Source: a virus
IMG/VR virus record: IMGVR_UViG_3300042691_048368
Location: 1 to 64,000 of that record
Strand: one strand, 5' to 3'
Length of the DNA stretch: 64,000 bases
Shown: positions 8,922 to 63,600 of the stretch, in pieces
Layout: every line of letters begins with the position of its first letter
Numbering within the stretch: position 1 is the first letter of the stretch
The notes under the pieces: generated by a model
Database searches by the model: none
What the model was told of the DNA's origin: nothing
Seen by the model: the letters and a program-made list of their open reading frames with translations, nothing else
Made by a program: the position numbers and the translations under genes

Positions 8922-9237
8922 CCAAAATTATTTTTCCTTTGAACCTTTCTTTCCAACTCAAGTTTTTATTGATAAGTGTATTATATTTTTGTTCGAGTAT
9001 GAATTTTTGGTTCTGTATATTGTTTATTTCACAATTATAATAGTCTTTTTGTTTACTCATTTCCTCAAGAGTATTTTCCATTCTTTCTTTATAATGAATG
9101 ATACTACAAGAGGATATTCTGTAAAAGTTTCTGAATTTTATCAAAAGAAATTTCAACTCATCGAGATTTAGTCCTTCATTAAAATCTGAAGTCATCAAAA
9201 AATCTAGTATTTCATTTTCCGATAAATCATTAACCAT
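8905..9237 (-). CDS. Hypothetical coiled-coil protein, 110 aa
   Basis: This small acidic protein has a helical second half (heptad-like stretch around residues 45-90). No membrane segment or domain is recognised. Its 3' end overlaps the start of the membrane protein gene by 17 bp, and 18 bp separate it from the upstream AAA ATPase gene, so the three are one minus-strand operon. Confidence 0.6.
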   Translation of the reverse strand: MVNDLSENEILDFLMTSDFNEGLNLDELKFLLIKFRNFYRISSCSIIHYKERMENTLEEMSKQKDYYNCEINNIQNQKFILEQKYNTLINKNLSWKERFKGKIILDDEIK

Positions 9238-9255
9238 TTCTATTATATATTATTT

Positions 9256-10335
9256 TTACACAAAACCAATATCAGACTTAACTTCAATAAGATTTTTCTT
9301 TTTCAAGACATCTATCAGTCTCATATTTGATTTGGTTTTAGTCTTTCTTCCAAGATGGTTTGAAAGGTCTTTTATTTTTTTGATTTCTAGACTCTTCACA
9401 TCGATTATGTCTAACAAATTATTAGATTCCAATAATATATGGTCAACTTGATTAATATCGTCAACATTCAATATTACTAAAATATGAGCCTTGAGATTAT
9501 CTGAATCAAGACCATCAACAATTTGTAATAAATTATTTGTAAATATGTTAGATTTTGAATAAATCTCACTGAAAAATAATTCCGAATCATCTAATATCAA
9601 TAAACAATCATTATTACTCTTCAAATAGTTTCTGAAGTCTGGATTATTTATTGTAGTTTCAAATAAACTACATGGTATAAAAATAGATTTTTTATCGATA
9701 TTTTTTACGATTTCATGAACCAATGAACTTTTTCCAACTCCTCTTTCTCCATGAATTACGGTCAAACCTTTATTGAACTTTTTGATATTTTTTTCAAGTT
9801 TTGACTTTTTCTTTAATGTTTCATCATTATAATATAGATCAAAATTATCAGAATCTATTTCAATAAAGGGTGTTGGTGTTATTTCAAAACCAGAAGTTCC
9901 TACACTAAGAATGTAACTATTAATGTCACTATTTGAAATATCGTCATCTATTTTATCGGATATTTGTAACAACTCTTGGTATAAGATGTCAAGTTCATTA
10001 CTAAAAGCTTCTTTGTGAAACAAATGAATTTCATTTATTAGACTGTCTTCTTGTTCAATATCATACTCAGTGTAGGAAATGAAAATATCGTCATTATATT
10101 GTCCAATAGATCTTCTATTGACAATTGAATCATTTTCAAGTGGGAAAATTTCAGTAAATGTATTAATGGTCTTTATATCAAATTTCAAAAGAAAATTTTG
10201 AAAATCAATAGACTTGAAACTTGTTAATACAGAAGTTTTGTTCGGTCTTTTATCGAAAAGATTCCAGCAAAATAAAAAATCATTTAACTGATTGTCTTCC
10301 TTGTTAATGTTTAGATTAAGAAAAGATTTTTTCAT
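9256..10335 (-). CDS. AAA-type ATPase, 359 aa
   Basis: A P-loop is present at residues 196-203 (GERGVGKS) and a Walker B strand at 245-250 (LLILDD). The ATPase part occupies the C-terminal half; the first 180 residues are acidic and unrecognised. A sensor-1-like Asn lies in the strand around LVILNVDD, and a winged-helix-like tail ends the chain. Related folds serve in replication initiation, DNA translocation and protein remodelling, and the sequence does not tell which. It is the first gene of the operon that continues with a coiled-coil protein, a membrane protein and the Hc1-like protein. An ACTATATATAAATC motif upstream of the ATG fits the phage promoter pattern. Confidence 0.75.
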   Translation of the reverse strand: MKKSFLNLNINKEDNQLNDFLFCWNLFDKRPNKTSVLTSFKSIDFQNFLLKFDIKTINTFTEIFPLENDSIVNRRSIGQYNDDIFISYTEYDIEQEDSLINEIHLFHKEAFSNELDILYQELLQISDKIDDDISNSDINSYILSVGTSGFEITPTPFIEIDSDNFDLYYNDETLKKKSKLEKNIKKFNKGLTVIHGERGVGKSSLVHEIVKNIDKKSIFIPCSLFETTINNPDFRNYLKSNNDCLLILDDSELFFSEIYSKSNIFTNNLLQIVDGLDSDNLKAHILVILNVDDINQVDHILLESNNLLDIIDVKSLEIKKIKDLSNHLGRKTKTKSNMRLIDVLKKKNLIEVKSDIGFV

Positions 10336-10376
10336 ATTAATGATTTATATATAGTGTACATAACAATGTTTTTGAA

Positions 10377-10541
10377 ATGACGAAAAGGGAGAAAGAATCA
10401 ATAATTGTATTGAGCAAATACTTAGCTATTTGTAAAGATGATACTAAAAAGTTCTCAACAATAAGAAATTATTTACATCATAGAATTTCAAAAATTTTCG
10501 AAATGAGAATGATCGAAAATATTATTGTTTCTAAATCCTAG
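10377..10541 (+). CDS. Possible small protein, 54 aa
   Basis: A short frame fills the gap between the divergent ATPase and the 83-aa gene. It starts at ATG 10377 (MTKREKESIIVL) and ends at TAG 10541, overlapping the end of the convergent 83-aa gene by 11 bp. The product is basic and helical. An ATATATAGTGTAC stretch precedes it. Length and composition are plausible for a small phage protein, but no homologue is recognised and the frame could be chance. Confidence 0.4.
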   Translation: MTKREKESIIVLSKYLAICKDDTKKFSTIRNYLHHRISKIFEMRMIENIIVSKS

Positions 10542-10811: not shown

Positions 10812-13800
10812 TTAAATATTAAAGTTGAAAGTGTACTGAAGATCTGAATTATTTTCAATCCATTTTTCCATTTCTTGTTGATTCAAATCTCTCAAGTCTC
10901 TTCCATCAGAAGTTTTTATAAAATAAACAAATTTAAAAGAGTCTTCATTACCTTTGTCATTTAATGAGGGATTGAATGCTATTCCTTCGGTTGATGCACT
11001 TGGACCCGTATTTATATCTATTGGATTTAAATTTAACAATTTAGCAATATCTTTCGGACTCAAATCAGCATTGGTATCTTTACATATATTCAAATATGGT
11101 GGTTTCAATACAATCCATTTACCTGTTTCTGGTTCAATTAGACCTAACACCGCCCATACAAAATCAATAAAAGTATTTATAACTGCCTCAATGAAGCATA
11201 ATATAGCATTCAATATCATGATAGGTAATGGAAATTTGAGGAACGTGATAGCTTTGAATTCTTTGTAAGAATAAGTTGGCCAAGTGGTCCAAGGTAGTTT
11301 TATAATTTCATTTAAATCAAATGTCATAAATGAAAATGGATTCGGTAAATCAGGAGCACCTGGAATTTTTGGTGGGTTAGGAAAAGCTAAGACCGGTAAC
11401 CATTCTGTGAAAAATTTTTGTATATCGAAAAGTATACCAGCCATTGAAAACATACTGTTAGGACTTATTGGACTGAAAAAATCCAAAATCCATTTGAAAC
11501 TTACAAAATCTATTATCTTACCTGGTAAACTAAATGGATTAGCTAAACTTTTGAAAAAATTCATTATGTAGGTTATTATACCGAATATAACTTTTAGTGG
11601 TAACATAACTAAATTAAGAATAAAATCAAATATTGGTTGTGTGGAAAAATTCTTACGCAATTTCCTTAAATTTTCAATTTTACCTTTCACAAACCCATTT
11701 TTAGGATCAATACGAAGCGCGTCTTCTAATTTACCTAAAGCTTTACCAAGTGACGTATCGTCTCCTTGTTCCTCCAATTTTATTGCCTCTCTTACTAAGT
11801 CATTTACTTGATCACTAAGGTAAAAATATTCATACAAAACATCTTCCTTGAAAGTACCAGTAGAATATACTGTAGATGTTTCTTCGATACTTGGAATTCC
11901 ACCAGCCTCAGCAGGTATTACGTTTTTGAATGTAAGTACCGGTGTAAAGTTCGCATTATATAAGGATGCTTCTTTAATATCTTTACTCATATTATCACTC
12001 ATATTACCTAATAAATCAGGCAGTTTTCTTTGAGATCCACTCTTAGTCCTATTCAAACCAAAAATTAATTTGAATGGTGGTTTTGGATCTGGTGAAATCA
12101 AACTTCCAAGATTTGTTTCAATTCCGAAAACTAAACTTGGTAGATTTTTTAACAGTGGGGCATCTCCAAACAAGTTGATTGTCGCTGATCCATCTAACAC
12201 AAATCTACCTTGTCCTTTATCGGAAATAAAAACATAGTTTTTCAGAAGAGAGGTATTCAGATATAATTTGAGCTCATCCTTTATGTCTTGTTTCTTTTCC
12301 GGATCTCCTTGAGCATTTTTCAAATCCTCGGCGTACTTCTTGACTTTTCTCAGTTGATCTAAAAAGGGTTTAGAGAAAAAACCGAACTTTGGAACATCTG
12401 TGCCGAAATCATCACCCAACTTTGCTATGATGATATCTGAAATAGCTTGTGGGGGATTTTTGATCAGATTTATGAATGTCGTGATAGCTGGTATCAGTTT
12501 TGCAGCAATCTTTATTACGATTCTCACAAATTTCTTAATAATACCAACCAAACAAATTGGTATAGCCTCAATTGAGCAACATAAATAAATTCCTCCTCCA
12601 CCTCCGCCACTTCTTTGACCATTTCCACCTTTAGCTTTCAAATCATTTTCTTCATTGACTGATATCAAAACATTTTTATTTTTGGTTTTTAATACCGCCT
12701 CCACTATATAATATGTTTGTATATCATCTTCTGTTCTTGGATATCTATAGATTTGTTCTACTGTTTGATTTCTGGATTCACCTGGCTCTGAACTTATTAT
12801 TGGGCTACCATAAGGTTCTTTTCCAATGGGTCCACTACCATATAATTGTTGGTTTCTAATATTTGCTTGTGGTCCAAGACCTGTTATAATTTTGGGTATA
12901 TTTTGCCCACCATCTGTATCAAGTATTCTTATCAAGTTTGGCTTAGCTTCTCTAGAAGCCAATGTGACTTGACCGCTTTCAACATTCAAATCGACAGTAG
13001 TAATTTGCCCCTCACTAGGGATGAATTGCGATAAATTAGGTGTTTTTAAAATTCCATAAAAATTACCATTTTGATTTATTAATACTTTTTCATTTTTGAA
13101 GTTTATCTGAAACAAAATCATCGTTCCACCCTGTTGAGGTCTTACCGCACCACCAATAGTGCCTTGTAAAAATTCTCTGTAGAAAGGTGAATAATTGACT
13201 ATATTTGATGATGAATCATCTATCCAAGCAGCAGTTGCACCTGATCCCTTATATTCAAAAGTCAATTTATATGTATCACCATTGGGTTTGAAATAAGCTC
13301 TTTTATTCGTCTCATAATTCCAATAATTAGTTAGATTTGTTGAAATTTCCGCATCAGCGATCCTAATCGGAAATTGAGAGTTTGATAAGACATAACCACT
13401 ATCTCCAGATCTTGGATCTTCGACAATGATAGCTCTATCCACACCATCCTTTCTAATATAATCAAGTGTCAGAGAGGTCTGATTCATATTGAAAAAATTA
13501 CCTTCTGATGTGTATATTATATAATTAATTCTTTTTTGATTTAAGAGTCTGACTGAATAACTCTTTTTTATAAATCTAAGTATTTTTGCTTTTCTTTCCC
13601 TTTCACCTACATTTTCAAGGAATGTTATGTCGAATGTTATATCACATTTGATTATTTTCATATCATATTCAGATTCTATATCATACCAAACATTACCGAT
13701 TTTCTTAGCTTTGAAAGCAAAAGCTATGTTTCTGAATTTTTCCGTATTTATGAGGTTGGTTGTATTAGTCCTAGAAACACTCATAAAATTATTGCTTATT

Positions 13801-27498: not shown

Positions 27499-28213
27499 GG
27501 TAATCTCTTAACTTATCTCTATAATCAATATATCTATGTAATTCTGGATCTCCCTCCGGTCCTATGTAAAGAATATAACCCATCTTTACGTCCAAACCAA
27601 CTTCTTCCAAAATAAGTGCATATAAGGAAATTTGAATGGAATATTCAGTTAGTTTACATTCATCTTCAGTTTCAAAGGGGCTCAATAACTTTTTATTGTA
27701 AGCACTTGTTGTGTCGAATTTTTTATTAGTTTTCCAATCTACAATAACAAGTTGATCTTTGTATGTAAACAAAGCGTCGAAAGTTCCAGCGAGTTTCCAT
27801 TTAGTTGAAAATACTTTCTGTTCGAATTTTACAGGTACTAGTTTAGTAAGTTTTTCATAATAAATTTTATGAAACTTATCCAATCTATCTATGATTTCAA
27901 AATCTCTAGGTATAGGTTGATAAACACCTTTGAAAAAGTTTTCAATCCATGCATGAGTAGCGTGTCCGATTTCGTTAGCTCGATCATTTAACTTTTTCCA
28001 TTCTTCTAAAACTTTATCTTGATCTTGTCCAGTTTTCTCAGCAGTAACCTTTGACCACTTATCCGAATCAAATTCCTCCTTGAACCTTTTGATAAAAGTA
28101 GTGACCGATTCATAATTTTTTCCATCATAGTAATATTTATGGTATTTTTCTTTGAACTCGAATAGAGTATTTTCATCAAAGAATTTTAACTTTTCTAGGA
28201 TTAAATCAGTCAT
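27482..28213 (-). CDS. PD-(D/E)xK (RecB/Cas4-type) nuclease, 243 aa
   Basis: The RecB-like catalytic set is complete: GHATHAWIE (83-91), a Glu strand VKFEQKVFS (E131), GTFDALF (D146), and IVDWKTNKK (D159, K161), followed by the Q/Y helix YSIQISLYALIL. This arrangement matches the single-domain RecB-family nucleases of many phages. It probably degrades or processes DNA ends during recombination or replication. Its neighbour upstream is a 72-aa gene on the same strand. The family is sure; the precise role is not. Confidence 0.85.
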   Translation of the reverse strand: MTDLILEKLKFFDENTLFEFKEKYHKYYYDGKNYESVTTFIKRFKEEFDSDKWSKVTAEKTGQDQDKVLEEWKKLNDRANEIGHATHAWIENFFKGVYQPIPRDFEIIDRLDKFHKIYYEKLTKLVPVKFEQKVFSTKWKLAGTFDALFTYKDQLVIVDWKTNKKFDTTSAYNKKLLSPFETEDECKLTEYSIQISLYALILEEVGLDVKMGYILYIGPEGDPELHRYIDYRDKLRDYLNSHF

Positions 28214-28246
28214 AATATATTATTATCAAATTAACAAACAATGTTT

Positions 28247-28465
28247 TTAAATAACTTTGAAGAAGCTCCAAGAACAAGGTACTCGACCTTCTTTAACAGT
28301 TATTATTTCACTAACTCGTTCTGCGTCAACAATTTCTCCTTCGATTATCTTTTCAAAATTTGAATCTTTGTGAAATCCTAATTCCAAATAATTAACATCG
28401 GTGTAATAATGGTGACCAACAAAACTATCACCCCTTTTTACTACTTTTATTTTACAAATTTCCAT
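28247..28465 (-). CDS. Hypothetical protein, 72 aa
   Basis: This short beta-rich protein (begins MEICKIKVVKRGDSFVGHHYY) has no recognised motif. It lies one base after the end of the 405-aa gene and so belongs to the unit behind the host-type promoter at 29692-29723. The RecB-like gene follows at 28213 after a gap of 33 bp with its own AATATATTATG start region. Confidence 0.6.
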   Translation of the reverse strand: MEICKIKVVKRGDSFVGHHYYTDVNYLELGFHKDSNFEKIIEGEIVDAERVSEIITVKEGRVPCSWSFFKVI

Positions 28466-28466
28466 G

Positions 28467-29684
28467 TCAAAAAGGTGTTAAATCTTCTTCAACTTGCTCG
28501 TCATCCAACGGGATGTAAAACATATTCGGTGAATTTATGTGTTCTTGTTGCGACTTTTTCTTACGTAATGATTCTAATAAAATATTATTGTTGAGGTCAT
28601 TGTCTTTGAAGATCCAATCATTCAGTGTAGGATCATACTGAGCATCATCCCTAAGAATGAAAGTGTCAAAGACATCAGAGTGTATACATAAATTCGAGTG
28701 AACGCGCATATCGAGGTAATTTAGATAAAGGGTCTCACTGAATTGGTAGTACAGTTTAGTTTTTTCACACAAAGTTAGATGATCCGAATCATAAGTAGAA
28801 CCATCGGCAGATGATAATGTCCTTATATTCGTATTAATCTGTGGTTTGTGGTTAGATATTTTACCCGACTTAAAATCTAAAAATTTGAATGTATCCATAT
28901 AAGGATAGTAATCGAATTTGAAATTATTAAGATCGAAATTTATTTCCTTATAAATTGTTTTTCCTTTGGACTCGAAAAACAAACTGTTGTTCCACTTTTG
29001 TTCTTTCTTATAAATAAACCCGTTTTCATCTGCCCATTTTTTAAAGTGGAACTGATAAGTTTCATCATCAATGGTATAAATTCTGTCCATTATCTTTTCA
29101 CCATTAATAGACCACAAGAGTGCTCGGCCAATCAACATATGATTATCTGTTAAAAGTACGAGTAAAGAAATTTTGTCTTTATTATCAGTATAAAGGCGCA
29201 GATAATCTTGACATTGATCATATTTCATGCAAGAATTACCAAGTGATCCAGACTCTGAGAGATAAGATTCATAGTGATAATAATGATAAATATTATCGCC
29301 ATTTACGACTTTGAAATTTGAATTAATTTTTGTCTGTACATTTTTAAAGAGCTGTGAGAAATTTTCTACTTCCCTTGGGTGGATGTTTCGGAAAAGTTTC
29401 GAAATGAATGCGCCGGGTTTGATGTGGAACCTTTTTGGAGAAGTCCACAAATCCTCTCCATTTTGCAAAAGATTTTCTATTCTTTCTTGAGTTAAATATG
29501 AAATCTTTGTTCTGTCTGATTGGGAAATAGAAATATAGTTGATGTGATTATCAACTAGGTTTTCTATTGAGTGTCTCTGTTTCAATAGAAGTCTAGCGAT
29601 TTCGGAATTATCCTTGATTTGTTCGAGGATGTAATCTAATTCTAATGATGTAATAATATCGGAGGTTTTTCTTGTATACGCCAT
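28467..29684 (-). CDS. Early paralogue of unknown phage family, 405 aa
   Basis: The central region (residues about 95-300) is clearly homologous to the protein encoded at 30868-32004. Shared blocks are F-x-(V/L)-V-x-G-(D/E)-x-I-x-x-YY, GxLGxSCMxYxxCQxY, GRAL(L/V)W and MDR(I/V)Y, then NxxKFxxYPxxDTxxxL and SSADGSxY / TSTDGDFY. I know this set of blocks from large-phage proteins but not its function; the conserved Cys pair (SCM...CQ) could be catalytic or metal-binding. Unlike the paralogue it has no tag at the start (MAYTRKTSD). The start is only some 6-8 bp downstream of the host-type promoter element at 29692-29699, so the transcript may be nearly leaderless. Confidence 0.7.
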   Translation of the reverse strand: MAYTRKTSDIITSLELDYILEQIKDNSEIARLLLKQRHSIENLVDNHINYISISQSDRTKISYLTQERIENLLQNGEDLWTSPKRFHIKPGAFISKLFRNIHPREVENFSQLFKNVQTKINSNFKVVNGDNIYHYYHYESYLSESGSLGNSCMKYDQCQDYLRLYTDNKDKISLLVLLTDNHMLIGRALLWSINGEKIMDRIYTIDDETYQFHFKKWADENGFIYKKEQKWNNSLFFESKGKTIYKEINFDLNNFKFDYYPYMDTFKFLDFKSGKISNHKPQINTNIRTLSSADGSTYDSDHLTLCEKTKLYYQFSETLYLNYLDMRVHSNLCIHSDVFDTFILRDDAQYDPTLNDWIFKDNDLNNNILLESLRKKKSQQEHINSPNMFYIPLDDEQVEEDLTPF

Positions 29685-29691
29685 AAGTTCA

Positions 29692-29723
29692 CAAAGGTAA
29701 AATTTTAATCTAACATATCCAAA
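29692..29723 (-). promoter_or_regulatory. Bacteroidota-type promoter (TTTG / TAnnTTTG)
   Basis: On the minus strand TTTG (29723-29720) is followed after exactly 20 bp by TACCTTTG (29699-29692). This is the -33/-7 form of Bacteroidota housekeeping promoters. The predicted start of transcription is close to the ATG of the 405-aa gene (29684). Confidence 0.65.
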
Positions 29724-30580
29724 AGTTGTGAAAGTTTATCTTCACGAATGAAGCACTGTGTGATTTGGAGAATTTTTTCAGTTTCCTTTCGAACAACATA
29801 TGAATCTTGATTGCGAAAAACATTCATATAAGCTTGAAATACCTTGAATGCATCTATGGAAAAATCATTGTACGATTCAATATTTAGTTTATCACTTGGG
29901 GTCATGAGTACATTAATTTGTGCTTTTGTAAAATCCTTGGAATGGTTCCAACGAAGGACGTTCTTTAGTGCATCAAACTTATTGTGATTTACTTTCTGGT
30001 CCTTATCAATGATAACATTACGAACTTGTGAAATCATTACTCGCTCCCCTACAAGTGATTTGATAGACTCAATTTGCTCATCAAAAGTCTCCACATCTAT
30101 ATTTTGAGCGGCAACTTCTGCTTTATCGGAAATACCTTTGATGTGTTTAGTGATAAGTGAAAAGTTTTTGATATTACTAACTAAATATGTACCATTATCA
30201 GCTTGATAAAGACCAAGATTCATACTGAGTCTACGAGACTTATCTGAAGAATTGAGTATGAAGAAAGCTTTGAAATACTTGATGCCAGCAATTTCAACTT
30301 CATCGGAGAGGAGAATGAGTTCTTGAATACCACCTCGAATGCGGAGATTTGAATAAGTAATATTGAAATTTGATTCAATATAATCGATTTTGGACTTCAT
30401 AAAAGACCGAATATCAAAAATCTCATAACGATTAGATACCAGTGTAGTGTTGATAACCCTACCGAAGTATTTGGTAACTACTTGGGATCCACTTTGACTG
30501 ATGTCAATTGCTTCGACACGACGAAAAAGGTCTGATTTGTTGTATTTTTGGTAACCGCGAGATAGTAGAAATGTTGACAT
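29705..30580 (-). CDS. Hypothetical, probably early protein, 291 aa
   Basis: This alpha/beta protein has no membrane segment and no catalytic motif I recognise (segments RGGIQELILLSDEVEIAG and YFKAFFILNSSDKSRRLSMN suggest a beta-rich core like that of small plasmid/phage DUF932-type proteins, weakly). It stands 20 bp upstream of the 405-aa gene on the minus strand and has its own host-type promoter 22-54 bp upstream of the start. The housekeeping-type promoter suggests early expression. Function unknown. Confidence 0.65.
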   Translation of the reverse strand: MSTFLLSRGYQKYNKSDLFRRVEAIDISQSGSQVVTKYFGRVINTTLVSNRYEIFDIRSFMKSKIDYIESNFNITYSNLRIRGGIQELILLSDEVEIAGIKYFKAFFILNSSDKSRRLSMNLGLYQADNGTYLVSNIKNFSLITKHIKGISDKAEVAAQNIDVETFDEQIESIKSLVGERVMISQVRNVIIDKDQKVNHNKFDALKNVLRWNHSKDFTKAQINVLMTPSDKLNIESYNDFSIDAFKVFQAYMNVFRNQDSYVVRKETEKILQITQCFIREDKLSQLLDMLD

Positions 30581-30602
30581 ATTGTATTTGATTTTGATAA
30601 TA

Positions 30603-30634
30603 CAAAGATAGTGGAAAGATTTATATAAAACAAA
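30603..30634 (-). promoter_or_regulatory. Bacteroidota-type promoter (TTTG / TAnnTTTG)
   Basis: TTTG (30634-30631) and TATCTTTG (30610-30603) are spaced by 20 bp on the minus strand, the same spacing as at 29692-29723. The gene at 30580 would have a leader of roughly 15-20 nt. Confidence 0.7.
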
Positions 30635-30845
30635 AAAAGTCTGAAATTTCTCTCAGACTTTTGGGGGTCATCAGAACATATGAGGAATAACGGTTTTTAC
30701 CTCAACCTTACCGTTCTCACAAGCATGATGTGAGATCTATTGCCAGGGTCAGACAGTCTGTGCTATTTTTAGCCCGTAAGTTTCCGAGAACTATTTTTAC
30801 ACCATTTTCTTATGACGGTGATTATATTTGGTAAATTTGATCAAG
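30635..30845 (-). ncRNA. Candidate structured noncoding RNA with terminator
   Basis: The gap of 287 bp holds no plausible gene, but it is G/C-richer than its surroundings and full of dyads. They are 30716-30734 (six-bp stem), 30689-30694 with 30710-30715 (six bp), 30762-30773 (four bp), and 30750-30760. The loop of the second hairpin (30700-30704) can pair with 30681-30685, which makes an H-type pseudoknot. The unit ends at 30635-30662 with a stem followed on the minus strand by seven T, a terminator that no minus-strand gene would need. A TATATTAATATAAA motif at 30846-30866 could start the transcript. It is not tRNA or tmRNA as far as I can see. Confidence 0.5.
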
Positions 30846-30866
30846 TTTTATATTAATATATAAATC
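30846..30866. promoter_or_regulatory. AATATATA-type promoter motif, possibly bidirectional
   Basis: The near-palindromic TTTATATTAATATATAAA sits directly before the start at 30868 and also before the ncRNA candidate on the other strand. It belongs to the recurrent phage motif class. Confidence 0.5.
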
Positions 30867-30867
30867 T

Positions 30868-32004
30868 ATGTTAAATAATTTTAATGGGTTCATTCTAGAG
30901 AAACAAGTAGTATCTTTATTATTGGAGAATGATTTAAACGCGTCACCTGAGTTTCTTGCAAGATTGAAAAAGATAAGAGATAGGAGTAAAGTAGCTCAAA
31001 TACTCTACGATTTATTCAGTGCAGAATACTATATTGTAAAAGATTTGCCTCAGAACTGGATTGATGTGACAAATGAGCCAGAAATGATTTCATTTTTATC
31101 TGATAGTAGAGCTAAAAGAACTCCGATGCAATGGGATGAAGATAGTTCAAAATATTATGATGTTTCTGGCAGAGGTCAAATAAAAGTTGGTAGGTTTGCA
31201 CAAGCTTTATTAAATGATCCAGATGTGATTGAAGATTTAGATTTATCCTTTGTTGAAAACTATATTCAAGGACTAACACCAAAAGATTTCGAAGATTTTG
31301 TAAACTTGTACAAATCTGAATTTGTAGTAGTTTCTAATGAGTTTAAATTGGTAAAGGGTGATGAAATCCCTTACTATTATGATTTTATGAACTATGCATA
31401 TCCCGACAAGGGACACTTGGGTGCATCTTGTATGAGGTATACACATTGTCAAAGATACTTCAGTATCTACAAAAAAAACCCAGAGGTGTGTCAATTATTG
31501 GCGTATGTAAATCAAGAAAATAAAGTTTTGGGTAGGGCACTTGTCTGGAAACTAGATAAGAAAGTTGATGGGTGTCCAGCAGAATATTTTATGGACAGAG
31601 TTTATTGTGCAAATGATAGTGATATGATAAAGTTCAAAAATTACGCTAAAGAGAAGGGTTGGGTTATGAAAAACAAAAATGCATCTGATGCGTATGAGGC
31701 TTTATTCTTCAACTACAATGATAAAGTCATTTTATCACACATTAGTGTTCAATTGAAAGAATCAAATTTTGCATTTTACCCTTTCATAGACACTCTGTCT
31801 TTATTGAACGAAACAAACGGTAAGTTACATAATGTTTTAGGGAAAAATTGTATTGAACTTACTTCGACAGATGGAGATTTTTACACGCCCGATACGAACA
31901 AAAGTAGGAGGGAAAATCTGAAAGAAATGCTAAACGAAATACTCAATGATAATAATTATTTGGGTTATAGAGACCTTATAGAAACTGCATTATCAAATCT
32001 TTAA
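30868..32004 (+). CDS. Late tagged paralogue of unknown phage family, 378 aa
   Basis: The second member of the family at 28467: blocks HLGASCMRYTHCQRYF, VLGRALVWKL, FMDRVYCAND, NFAFYPFIDTLS and TSTDGDFYTPD correspond one-to-one to blocks of the 405-aa protein. Its start differs: MLNNFNGFILEKQVV carries the Phe-x-x-Phe-I-L-E|K tag-like pattern found on presumed cargo proteins. The gene is preceded directly by the AATATATAAA motif, not a host-type promoter, so late expression is expected. It is convergent with the UvsY-like gene (stop codons adjacent). I infer that this copy may enter the host with the virion while the other is made from the genome; this is untested. Confidence 0.7.
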   Translation: MLNNFNGFILEKQVVSLLLENDLNASPEFLARLKKIRDRSKVAQILYDLFSAEYYIVKDLPQNWIDVTNEPEMISFLSDSRAKRTPMQWDEDSSKYYDVSGRGQIKVGRFAQALLNDPDVIEDLDLSFVENYIQGLTPKDFEDFVNLYKSEFVVVSNEFKLVKGDEIPYYYDFMNYAYPDKGHLGASCMRYTHCQRYFSIYKKNPEVCQLLAYVNQENKVLGRALVWKLDKKVDGCPAEYFMDRVYCANDSDMIKFKNYAKEKGWVMKNKNASDAYEALFFNYNDKVILSHISVQLKESNFAFYPFIDTLSLLNETNGKLHNVLGKNCIELTSTDGDFYTPDTNKSRRENLKEMLNEILNDNNYLGYRDLIETALSNL

Positions 32005-32496
32005 TTAACCACCTAAATAATTCATAAGTTCAATTATATTTTTAATCGTATAACCTAAACTTTCTAAATTTTTTGAACAGTTTCTTAAGAATTCGATGTA
32101 ATTGTCTATAAGTAGGATTGTTCTATCATTTTCCGCTAGATGAGCATCTATCAAAGTAGATTTTTCACCAGCATTTGTTTTCAGTCCTATTCCAAGAGCG
32201 TAAAATACAAACTTATCTTGTCTGATCTTTTTAACTTTTACTTCCTCTTTTGACCTTTTATTTAAAAAAAAGGAAATTTGTTCATTTATCATTTGTCGAT
32301 AACTCAAAGCTATAGATTGGCATTCAAAAACTTTCGATGAATTATCTATAGTCAATCTATTTTTGATGACCTCAAAAAGTGGTTCTAAATTCTTATTCCA
32401 TTCCTCACGTTTTTGGTTGAAAAACTCTTCTAACTTATCATTGGTATCTTTTGTCTTATTGATCCTTTCAAGTTCTTCTGGTGGGTAAAGGTTCAT
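32005..32496 (-). CDS. UvsY-like recombination mediator, 163 aa
   Basis: The C-terminal 40 residues (YIEFLRNCSKNLESLGYTIK then NIIELMNYLGG) align by pattern with the end of T4 UvsY (short helix, Cys, then a G-F/Y-x-I-K-x-I segment). The N-terminal part is helical and charged. UvsY loads the UvsX recombinase on single-stranded DNA covered by gp32. Together with the gp47-like protein at 45619 it indicates T4-type recombination-dependent replication. The similarity is confined to the C-terminus, so confidence is moderate. It is 26 residues longer than T4 UvsY. Confidence 0.6.
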   Translation of the reverse strand: MNLYPPEELERINKTKDTNDKLEEFFNQKREEWNKNLEPLFEVIKNRLTIDNSSKVFECQSIALSYRQMINEQISFFLNKRSKEEVKVKKIRQDKFVFYALGIGLKTNAGEKSTLIDAHLAENDRTILLIDNYIEFLRNCSKNLESLGYTIKNIIELMNYLGG

Positions 32497-32543
32497 AAAA
32501 ATAGGGTTTTTTATTTATATATACTTCAAATAGGTAAGTTATC

Positions 32544-33266
32544 ATGAAAATAAAAACTCTTTTCATTAGTGACATACATCTTGGAAATCCAAATTCTCAA
32601 GCTGATAAATTGTTAAGAATTTTAAAAGAGTATGATTTTGAAAATCTTTTCATAATTGGTGACTTCATCGATATGACTTATCTCAAAAGAAAGTTTTATT
32701 GGGATCAAAATCATTCGACTGTTATACAGAAGATCTTGAGACTATCAAGAAAGGGTTGTAAGGTGACTTACATTTTGGGAAATCATGACTATTATATAAG
32801 AAGTGTAATTGAAGAAGGAAATATACATTTCGGAGAAATCCTAATTTGTGATGATTATGTTTATCAAACTAAAGGTGGTGAAAAAATCTACCTTACACAT
32901 GGTGACTGTTTTGATGGTTTTGTGAGAATAAGTCCGTGGTTATATTGGTTGGGGGATGTTTCATATGAGTTGTCAATAAAAATAAACAAAATATACAATT
33001 GGTTCAGGAGATTATTCAAATTAGAATACTGGTCCTTTTCAGCTTACATGAAAACAAAAGTAAAAAGTGCAATTAGTTTCTTGTCTGAGTATAGGAAGAT
33101 TTCTGAAGTCAAAATCAAGGAAATGAACTGTGACTCAATAATGATTGGTCATACTCATAATCCTGAAATAAGTAATAATTATTATAACACTGGCGATTTT
33201 TGCGAAAGTTGTTCTTATATCATTGAGGATCTTGATGGTAATATAAAATTATTATATGTGAAGTGA
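32544..33266 (+). CDS. LpxH-like calcineurin-type phosphoesterase, 240 aa
   Basis: All metallophosphoesterase motifs are present: SDIHLG (9-14), GDFID (39-43), GNHDYY (79-84), THGD (118-121) and GHTHNPE near residue 202. A following NTGDFCESCSY segment is typical of UDP-2,3-diacylglucosamine hydrolase (LpxH-like) proteins, which cut the nucleotide from a lipid A precursor. It overlaps the GT28-like gene by 4 bp with a GTG start. The two are presumably one operon whose function is change of the host envelope. LpxH identity is likely but not distinguishable from other members by sequence alone. Confidence 0.78.
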   Translation: MKIKTLFISDIHLGNPNSQADKLLRILKEYDFENLFIIGDFIDMTYLKRKFYWDQNHSTVIQKILRLSRKGCKVTYILGNHDYYIRSVIEEGNIHFGEILICDDYVYQTKGGEKIYLTHGDCFDGFVRISPWLYWLGDVSYELSIKINKIYNWFRRLFKLEYWSFSAYMKTKVKSAISFLSEYRKISEVKIKEMNCDSIMIGHTHNPEISNNYYNTGDFCESCSYIIEDLDGNIKLLYVK

Positions 33267-34219
33267 AAATATTATATGGTATTCAGTCAACAGGAAACGG
33301 TCATATATCAAGATCAGCAAAAATAGTAAATAAACTTATTAGAAAAGGTTTCATGGTGGATATCCTTTTCTCTGGTAAAAATTCACAATTGGCATTTCCA
33401 TTTCCTATAAAATATAATTTCACCGGTCTGACATTTCATTATGACGGTAGTGGTAATATTTCCTATTGGAAAACATTTAAGGACATACACATCATACAAT
33501 TCTTAAATGATATTAAACTAGACCTTACATCTTATGACTTGGTAATTTCAGATTTTGAGCCAATCACTGCCTGGGCGTCAAAGTTACAAAAAAGGAAATG
33601 TGTAGGTATAAGTAACCAATGTTCTTACATTTCAAATAAAGTACCTAGACCTGAAAAAAAAGATTTTCTTGGTGAATCAATACTCAAATGGATGGCTCCT
33701 GTGTCAAATCCAATTGGATTACATTTTGAAAAATATGACGATTTTATATACACTCCGATTATAAAAGAATCCTTGATGAAAATATCAACAAGTGATAAAG
33801 GTCATTATGTGATTTATTTGCCAACTTTTGAACTCGAAAATGTGTTAAGTCAGGTATATAAAATAAAAACGGTTAGGTTTGACATCTTCACTCACATAAA
33901 AAAACCTCATTGGATTGGTAAATGTCATGTTTTACCAATAAAAAAAGATTTATTTGATGAAAGTATAAGGACTTGTCACGGTGTAATAAGTACAGGAGGG
34001 TTTCAAACTTCAGTTGAATCCTTATACTTAGGTAAAAAATTGATGGTCATACCAACAAAAGGTCAATATGAGCAGTTATGTAATGCTGAATCATTATCCA
34101 AAATGGGATGTGATGTGGGTTTATTAACCGATATACCAAAATTTATAGATGGGGGTAAAAACATTAAAATCGAATGGGATGACCCGTCTGATGAAATTAT
34201 TAAAAGATTGTTGAATTAG
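33263..34219 (+). CDS. MurG/GT28-like glycosyltransferase, GTG start, 318 aa
   Basis: The GTG start overlaps the preceding stop (GTGA). The N-terminal Gly-rich GNGHISRS at residues 11-18 is the acceptor-side loop of GT-B enzymes related to MurG/UDP-glycosyltransferases. The C-terminal domain has HGVISTGGFQTSVESLYLGKK and the donor-binding VIPTKGQYEQLCNAESL, the pattern of GT28 nucleotide-sugar binding. In Bacteroidota such a gene often stands next to an LpxH-like hydrolase, which suggests the pair was taken from a host. Substrate unknown; envelope glycolipid modification is inferred. Confidence 0.75.
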   Translation: MKILYGIQSTGNGHISRSAKIVNKLIRKGFMVDILFSGKNSQLAFPFPIKYNFTGLTFHYDGSGNISYWKTFKDIHIIQFLNDIKLDLTSYDLVISDFEPITAWASKLQKRKCVGISNQCSYISNKVPRPEKKDFLGESILKWMAPVSNPIGLHFEKYDDFIYTPIIKESLMKISTSDKGHYVIYLPTFELENVLSQVYKIKTVRFDIFTHIKKPHWIGKCHVLPIKKDLFDESIRTCHGVISTGGFQTSVESLYLGKKLMVIPTKGQYEQLCNAESLSKMGCDVGLLTDIPKFIDGGKNIKIEWDDPSDEIIKRLLN

Positions 34220-60600: not shown

Positions 60601-63600
60601 CGGCTGTCTGTAAAGTCCACTGATATGGTACTGGTTTGGTATAATCACCTTTGTTTAGTATCATACTAACCGCCATAACGGTTCCTGCTATAGCTATTAT
60701 TGCAACTAATCCTGCTAAAATTGCTAGGGCACCAACACCAGAGCTTGCTATAGTACCTAACAGTACGGCTGCTATACCAAAAGGTATCATGGCGGCAGCT
60801 GCTCCTAAAGTCCAGGCAAAACTTGGGTATTTGTTGTATTCGCCCATATTTAGTAAAAGAGATGAGACGTATATAGTAGCTGCAATTGCGATAATTGCGA
60901 TTCCCCCCTTTATTGCTTGTGCAACTGATAAGCCTACTTTATCAAGTAGGTATATTGCAAAACCAAAAGATACCATAGATAGTGCAGCATTGATCAACCA
61001 AGTGAATGATGGGTATTTATCGTAAGTACCCTTACTCAATATTAAAGAAGTTGCAAGAATTGCTGCTGATATGACAACAAGAGAAATAGCACCTTTCAAT
61101 ACTTTTGTTGGTGTCATTTTTAGTTTATCAAGTGCAAAAATTGCGTAACCAAATCCAACCATTGCGATTCCCGCAAAGAAAATCCAAGTAATAGATGGAT
61201 ATTTATCATACTTGCCAATTGACAAAATTAGAGATGTGGCAACAACTGCAGCCGATATTATTACCAAATTGATTGCCCCATCTATCATTGTTTTCTTATT
61301 GAACTTCGAAAGTCTATTGAAAACAAAACTCATTCCAACTCCTATCAGACCAAGTACTATCGATATACCAACAGCATTGACCAATTTACTGAATGGTACT
61401 ATTTTGATTTCCGACAAAATATAGGAGCTTAACATTATTGTCAATGCCATTGCTACCAATATTATTGGGACTAGAGCCATCTTGGCGGGACTTACATTTG
61501 ATATACCTTTAGTTATGTAAGGTATAGCAAATGATATAGGTATAAACACAATTGCTATCAATACAGCGGTCAGTGCTTGGAATAATCCTATCGGTTTTAC
61601 ACCAGCAAGAAGGAATGATGATCCCAAAATTGCCGCTGAAACTGCTATTAGAAGTATGGGTAGTATCACGGATGCTAAGATCGCTTTTCCTTTACTGATC
61701 CCTTCCATACCTTTCAGTAGTTTACCTAGACCATAACCTATTACTGCAAATACACCAGCTATAAAAACAGATGTAATAAGTTGGAATAAACCAACTGGTT
61801 TTACACCAGCTAATAGGAATGATGAACCTAAAATAGCTGCTGAAATTGCAACCAAGACTAATGGTAGTAGTGGTATCATTGCTATACTTTTCACACCCAA
61901 CTTACCTAAGCCACTCAATAAACCACCTAAACCATAGGAGACTGCTGAAAACATTGCAGCAATTAGTATCGAAGTTATCATTTGGAATAAACCAACTGGT
62001 CTTACCATTCCGAGTATCTGTGATGACGCGGCGATTGCTAAAGAAATACCTACCATTATGAAAGGTAAAAGAGGTACCATTAAAAGTCCTTTACCACTAA
62101 TCTTACTTATACCAATCAACATTTTACCGAGACCATATGACAATACGGTAAACATACCTGCAATCAATATGGCGGTAATCATTTGTAATACTCCGACCGG
62201 TCTTACCGCTGCTAAAATAAATGATGATAACATTACTGCGAGTGATATACCAACCAATACTGCGGTGAGTCCAGCTGCCCTTCCTGGTGTCAAATTTTTA
62301 GCTTCAGCTAATTTAGTGAAAGCAATTGCGAGTACCGATATAGCAATACCGAGACCTAGCACAGAAGCGAAATTAACATTTCCTACTATTTTAAGTGCTA
62401 GACCAATTGCTAGTACGCCAGCCGCTATCAATATTATTATCTTGAGACCAGACTGTATCTTTTGTGTCTCTTTCGGATCACCAGCTTTTCCAAATATTCC
62501 ACCATCTTTATCAGACTTAGCTTGTGATTCAATAGTCCTAGGTTTTGGTTTTTTGTACTTAACTTCTACTTCAACTGGTTTAGGTTGTGGTAGTATTGGG
62601 GGTTTTGGTCTACCAAATTTTAAACCTATTTCAGGCATTTTTGGTAAAGATGGAAACTTAGGTAGTTTCGGTTTCAAAAATTCCAAATTTATGTTTGGCA
62701 TCTTTGGTAAAGATGGGAACTTTGGAAGTTTTGGTTTTTGTATTGATAAAGATAAATCCGGTAGTTTTGGTAACTTTGGTAACTTTGGAAGTTTCGGAGT
62801 TGTAAAACCAAGATCTATTTTCGGAAATCTTGGTAATTTTGGCATTTGGGGCAATTTAGAGACTGCAAAATCAATACTCGATTTTATTTTTGGTACAGTA
62901 GGTAATTTTGGTAACTTAGATACCGTAAAATCGATACTTGATTTAATATTTGGTACATTTGGTAATTTTGGCAGTTTTGATACGGTAAAGTCAATAGTTG
63001 ATTTGAGACTCTTTACCGTCGGTAACTTTGGTAATTTAGATACGGCAAACTCAATACTCGACTTCAAATTCTTCACCGTCGGTAATTTTGGCAGTTTTGA
63101 TACGGCAAAGTCAATAGTTGATTTGAGACTTTTTACCGTCGGTAATTTCGGAAGCTTCGATACTGCGAAATCAATACTTGACTTTAAATTCTTTACCGTC
63201 GGTAATTTTGGTAATTTGGATATGGCAAAGTCAATACTCGATTTCAAATTCTTCACCGTCGGTAACTTTGGTAATTTGGTTACGGCAAAGTCAATAGTTG
63301 ATTTGAGACTCTTTACTGTCGGTAATTTTGGCAGTTTTGATACGGCAAAGTCAATAGTTGATTTGAGACTCTTTACTGTCGGTAATTTCGGAAGCTTCGA
63401 TACTACGAAATCAATACTTGACTTTAAATTCTTTACCGTCGGTAATTTCGGAAGCTTCGATACTACGAAATCAATACTTGATTTCAATCTAGGTACCGAT
63501 GGGAATTTTGGAAATTTGCCAATTATAAACTCAACAGTTGATTTTATATTTGGTATTGTTGGAAGCTTAGGAATTTTCGAAAAAGATAGATCGATACTTT

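Follow-up and report, generated by a model that had tools for sequence, protein, structure and literature searches.

A predicted structured noncoding RNA with a covarying fold in large phages that probably infect Bacteroidota

The DNA considered here, referred to as the window, is a stretch of 64 kb out of a 94,997-bp virus record. Within it, a spacer separates two divergent genes, one encoding a protein of 291 amino acids and the other a protein of 378 (Table 1). The first-pass annotation had described the stretch as noncoding and raised in G+C, and both descriptions hold. Neither strand of the spacer has a long open reading frame, every frame of the RNA core discussed below is interrupted by stops, and the G+C of that core is 0.42, against 0.28-0.39 in the flanking 200-bp segments. 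ARAGORN finds no tRNA or tmRNA in the window.

The predicted structure of the 291-aa protein matches phage proteins of the DUF932/TIGR03299 type (Foldseek E ~1e-5, BFVD); Pfam has no match to it. Homologues of this protein are also found in phage records of 462-642 kb. Its gene is preceded by a promoter of the Bacteroidota type, for which the published consensus is TTTG, 19-20 nt, TAnnTTTG (PMC7366714). This promoter, which most relatives of the gene have whether they bear the RNA or not, begins right at the end of an intrinsic terminator. The minus-strand terminator had been noticed from the outset, and indeed the site (read from 30662 to 30635) is the only terminator-like one in 5.5 kb (28000-33500).

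Other features of the neighborhood deserve mention in their own right. The 378-aa protein and the product of 28467-29684 (minus strand) share an LGxSCMxYxxCxxY-like motif and are apparent paralogues; neither has a match in Pfam or PHROG. A UvsY-like recombination mediator at 32005-32496 (minus strand) suggests a T4-like recombination system. At 30855-30870, right where the 378-aa gene has its start codon, lies a conserved TATATAAAYTTATG-like sequence with matching sites in contigs L005, L006 and L007; it may act as a late promoter or as a start signal.

Table 1. Positions in the window of the predicted RNA, its helices and the adjoining features.
Feature	Position	Strand	Remarks
Conserved RNA core, 124 nt	30681-30804	minus	Matches to covariance models R1/R2; nine distinct sequences
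P1 5' arm GUGU	30799-30802	minus	Proposed pairing with GCAC 30760-30763; invariant in 9/9, so covariation cannot test it
P2 hairpin AGUU-CUCGGA-AACU	30779-30792	minus	36/36 cells paired; 2/4 pairs compensatory
P6 5' arm ACGG	30774-30777	minus	Probable kissing pseudoknot with 30690-30693
P3 5' arm ACUGU	30753-30757	minus	Pairs with 30710-30714
17-nt one-sided bulge CUGACCCUGGCAAUAGA, between P3 and P4	30736-30752	minus	Conserved; predicted unpaired in all nine members
P4 hairpin UCUCACA-UCAUGCU-UGUGAGA	30715-30735	minus	Conserved heptaloop UCAWGCU
P3 3' arm ACGGU	30710-30714	minus	Placed in another stem by the first-pass annotation
P5 5' arm UUGAGG	30700-30705	minus	Pairs with CCUCA 30681-30685
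P6 3' arm CCGU	30690-30693	minus	Within P5 loop
P5 3' arm CCUCA	30681-30685	minus	Pairs with the 30700-30705 side
Intrinsic terminator of the RNA	30635-30662	minus	12-pair stem and U-rich tail
Promoter of 291-aa gene, Bacteroidota type (TTTG, 20 nt, TATCTTTG)	30603-30634	minus	Just past terminator stem; outside RNA
291-aa gene	29705-30580	minus	DUF932/TIGR03299-like fold; context, outside RNA
Spacer between divergent genes	30581-30867		Separates 291-aa gene (minus) from 378-aa gene (plus)
378-aa gene	30868-32004	plus	

The thermodynamics of the region are unremarkable. The minus strand including the terminator folds with z = -2.0 and the plus strand with z = -0.8; without the terminator, the core gives z values from -1.2 to +1.3 across all nine members of the family described below. 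Folding energy alone is therefore no better than chance. The case for the RNA rests, of course, on conservation and covariation, and for these a comparison is needed.

An exact 20-mer from the spacer matched one other viral contig. Further members were gathered through relatives of the 378-aa and 291-aa proteins and a DNA search of their records, through a pattern of shared motifs, and through searches with covariance models. Together these place the RNA in nine other viral contigs of 15-476 kb, giving ten records with the window, each holding one copy. The sequences in L024 and L031 are identical, leaving nine that are distinct, with cores of 115-124 nt. Model R1 was built from six members, with the three most divergent left out, and it recovers these three at E values of 4.9e-20, 1.1e-17 and 4.9e-15. 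The core in the window matches R1 with 144 bits and model R2 with 138 bits.

Identity to the core in the window is 97.6% in L002, 87% in L006, 86% in L005 and 70-74% in the remainder. The neighboring 291-aa gene is 78% identical to that of the window at the nucleotide level in L006 and 75% in L005, with third codon positions at 55% and 52%. Thus, the spacer is more constrained than the coding sequence adjacent to it.

The RNA does not accompany the 291-aa protein everywhere. No copy turned up in three contigs (109-281 kb) encoding this protein, nor in two short ones. The related public phage LR745206.1 (634,780 bp), scanned in pieces except for about 900 bases around 499.1-500.0 kb, has no copy, which implies that some of the group can do without the RNA. 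In a tree of the 291-aa protein, RNA-bearing members fall on both sides of the deepest split; the RNA is therefore an old one that has been lost repeatedly, or else it has passed from one of these phages to another. Their host group is probably the Bacteroidota, as judged from the promoter type and from a type IX secretion (T9SS) sorting domain encoded in L005.

Wider searches returned no further member. The large collections were searched by exact pattern or with a strict filter, which diverged members may have escaped: a first exact DNA pattern had no match in 84,980 genomes, and a second had 8, all lacking the rest of the RNA. The same lack led to the rejection of pattern matches in viral contigs L025-L027 and L034. 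BLASTN against phage and plasmid collections gave no homologue; a match to pT24 falls on the promoter/terminator spacer rather than on the RNA and was set aside. Across some 790 Bacteroidota genomes, R2 produced no accepted copy. Its sole match there (L053, 35 bits) falls within a gene that resembles one for an outer-membrane receptor, on the opposite strand, and is attributed to chance.

Comparison of the members indicates that a structured RNA about 124 nt long is encoded on the minus strand. In alignment A8, which was fitted to the covariance model and is for that reason biased towards the model's own structure, 10 of the 27 pairs have changed on both sides (21 cells), where shuffling gives means of 5.3 pairs and 8.3 cells. 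None of 500 shuffles reaches the observed value for pairs or for cells, and sliding the partners gives at most 4 pairs and at most 8 cells. A covariation check in related phages had been proposed with the first-pass annotation; this is its outcome, and it speaks for the RNA, the compensatory changes supporting one shared fold as expected of structured noncoding RNAs in general. In an unbiased scan covering the full set of 7,626 four-pair helices in A8, P3, P4 and P2 come out on top.

A second alignment, made by hand and with one L031 base outside the helices dropped, is the source of the list of individual pairs and of P6. In it, the extended P3 helix has compensatory types in all seven columns. 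P4 has compensatory change in three pairs, with four pair types at one position, and the arms of P2 occur as AGUU/AACU, AGUC/GACU and AGCU/GGCU. The bulge between P3 and P4 has the consensus CCUGGCWAUAGA, in which CUGGC and AUAGA are invariant. P5 had been drawn correctly from the window sequence (30681-30685 with 30700-30704), though it hardly varies: GAGG/CCUC is kept in nine members, with a single change of U-A to U-G. When the L018 sequence is folded on energy only, P1, P3, P4, P5 and most of P2 appear.

The helices also identify the strand. They contain 26 G-U pairs (nine of them from one invariant P1 pair) and one A-C pair; read on the opposite strand, the counts would be reversed, to 1 G-U and 26 A-C. 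This asymmetry marks the minus strand as the functional one.

The pseudoknot of the first-pass annotation survives in part. One is probably present, as a kissing interaction (P6) in which the loop of P5 pairs with the segment after P2, some 80 nt upstream in the RNA. Here, one G-C pair has become C-G in L018 and L031, and another G-C has become A-U in L018; P6 is called probable rather than proven because this region was aligned by hand, and of all the helices it is the least certain. The H-type arrangement, in contrast, was wrong. It had placed P5 beside a stem joining 30689-30694 to 30710-30715, for which the complementarity does exist and which can form in close relatives. In L029 and L032, however, only two of its six pairs are left, while its arms form P3 (7/7) and P6 (5 and 6 of 6). 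That stem is therefore rejected, and its arms are assigned to the other helices.

Rfam 15 has no match to the window at the gathering threshold, and relaxed E-values brought up only unrelated, sub-threshold matches to the spacer of the window and to five relatives. The absence of a credible match is consistent with a new RNA, as are the compensatory changes in homologues, the G-U asymmetry and the terminator behind every member; the initial proposal of a new phage noncoding RNA on the minus strand is accordingly upheld. No description of it was found in the literature searched, coverage of which was incomplete.

Nor does any known partner family accompany the RNA consistently, among the TROVE, TnpB/Cas12f and Hfq families. 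A TROVE domain, which would point to a Ro60/Y-RNA system, occurs in one of the ten RNA-bearing records, which may be fragments and whose host could supply such a protein. The one instance, of Ro60 type, is encoded by an open frame of 484 aa at C1:96977-97714 (plus strand) of G009, the 476-kb record of L032. TnpB/Cas12f proteins had no match in 13 records (possibly fragments) by a search that was positive in six control genomes, and no Hfq was found in the records searched. Complements to the bulge are no more frequent in the window than chance would have them, and complementarity of the RNA to 16S rRNA is likewise at chance level. Since neither the genes of the window nor 16S rRNA is complementary beyond chance, classical antisense action was set aside.

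What, then, does the spacer encode? The best reading, and in our estimate a fairly probable one, is a structured phage noncoding RNA that acts in trans, in large phages probably infecting Bacteroidota. The strongest of its rivals, rather unlikely in our estimate, makes the RNA the 3' end of the upstream mRNA, where the knotted structure and terminator would protect that end or release a processed 3'-UTR RNA. In L005, L018, L029, L031, L032 and L033, six of the nine cores, the RNA does begin 0-41 nt past the stop codon of an open frame on its own strand and leads into a terminator. Further, no promoter of its own is recognized: a sigma-ABfr scan stays at background in all members, and a TATAA-like box is weakly enriched (3/9 members; 12/1000 shuffles), mainly through close relatives. 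Against this stand the upstream genes themselves, which are unrelated among members (Band_7, metallopeptidase-like, T9SS-tail protein and unknowns), and the window, L002 and L006, which have no same-strand open frame directly upstream, their upstream neighbor being divergent. Protection of an end, moreover, would not require long invariant unpaired motifs. Because the upstream contexts differ in this way, the RNA appears to be a gene in its own right or, in certain phages, a 3' end that is released.

Looking downstream instead, one might see a riboswitch or attenuator, its terminator governing expression of the DUF932-like gene. An aptamer-like fold, a terminator and that gene do follow one another in the window, L002, L005, L006 and L018. 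The gene, however, has its own conserved promoter past the terminator, and other genes stand downstream in L029, L031, L032 and L033 (in L032 the next gene is convergent). Pairing of the core with the terminator arms, as an antiterminator would require, is not consistently stronger than in shuffled sequences (mean z -0.26 and -0.14). The differing downstream genes, the separate promoter and the lack of a conserved antiterminator thus make a riboswitch distinctly unlikely. A ribozyme or other catalytic RNA would suit the compact pseudoknotted fold and its long invariant unpaired stretches; no Rfam ribozyme matches, self-cleaving ribozymes do not usually sit at a constant place ahead of a terminator, and we regard such an RNA as very improbable. 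Chance would mean that an AT-rich spacer happens to contain complementary segments and a terminator, and could appeal to the core's folding energy. Against it speak the deep conservation, the compensatory changes and the successful prediction of held-out members, and covariation refutes it, leaving it a negligible candidate.

The favored reading, a trans-acting phage RNA, can be given a tentative mechanism. The transcript would be roughly 170 nt long, started at a promoter of its own in the clade of the window and elsewhere perhaps made by read-through from the preceding gene. Its end would be set by a hairpin and U-rich tail, which follow the core within about 30 nt in 9/9 members (the L031 tail being least regular) and whose stem sequences differ outside the window's clade. 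The fold established by comparison consists of P1/P2, a long P3-P4 hairpin with the 17-nt bulge, and P5, with a probable pairing between the P5 loop and that of P1; this fold would be rigid. Long conserved stretches that are predicted to be unpaired suit binding; the bulge and the heptaloop might be displayed as a binding surface, for which a phage or host protein would be the most likely ligand. Thus, we infer that the RNA is probably bound to protein and would act during infection as a component of a ribonucleoprotein or as a decoy. A bolder version is doubtful, if not far-fetched: the RNA could be the core of a new phage ribonucleoprotein or a catalytic RNA, an accessory of large Bacteroidota phages, with CCUGGCWAUAGA as an active or docking site that has no counterpart among known RNA classes.

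As a kind, the predicted RNA is not without precedent. It is a new family among phage-encoded structured noncoding RNAs of unknown function. GOLLD and ROOL, ornate RNAs encoded by phages and prophages (PMC12286853), are likewise noncoding, have elaborate covarying folds with kissing interactions, and have no known function. They are several times larger, however (GOLLD often over 800 nt, against a core of ~120 nt here), and often lie near tRNA islands, whereas the window has no tRNA; neither Rfam model matches, and the RNA is assigned to neither family. Bacterial small RNAs that end in terminators, including those derived from 3' UTRs, share the length of ~170 nt, the intrinsic terminator and, often, the position just downstream of an open frame. 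Here, in contrast, no seed complementary to a target was found, the records have no Hfq gene, and the fold is pseudoknotted rather than open. Pseudoknotted riboswitch aptamers offer a similarly compact architecture upstream of a terminator but differ as described above, in the antiterminator, the independent downstream promoter and the constancy of the downstream genes. The guide scaffolds of TnpB/Cas12f, also small pseudoknotted RNAs, differ in having a variable guide segment, which the core lacks, and a cognate protein, the like of which is in no RNA-bearing record; a guide RNA was rejected on these grounds.

Only a few structured RNAs encoded by phages have been described, and most of them lack an assigned function. 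This one is absent from Rfam 15, and has been kept in viruses whose neighboring protein has diverged to ~46% identity. Its compact fold is directly testable. The consensus structure and covariance model can be used to annotate the genomes of huge phages and to look for the transcript in existing metatranscriptomes.

Some further genes were seen beside the RNA in single contigs. The T9SS sorting-domain gene of L005 (2021-2956, minus strand) separates the RNA from the 378-aa gene, an arrangement seen in this contig only. In L033, a 627-aa Band_7/SPFH protein is encoded just upstream of the RNA (11562-13445, minus strand), and a 496-aa open frame at 9039-10529 (minus strand) resembles glutamyl-tRNA synthetase, a label given by reading the sequence only. 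Elsewhere in the window, 62853-63544 holds a tandem array of about ten copies with a period of 60 bp (20 codons).
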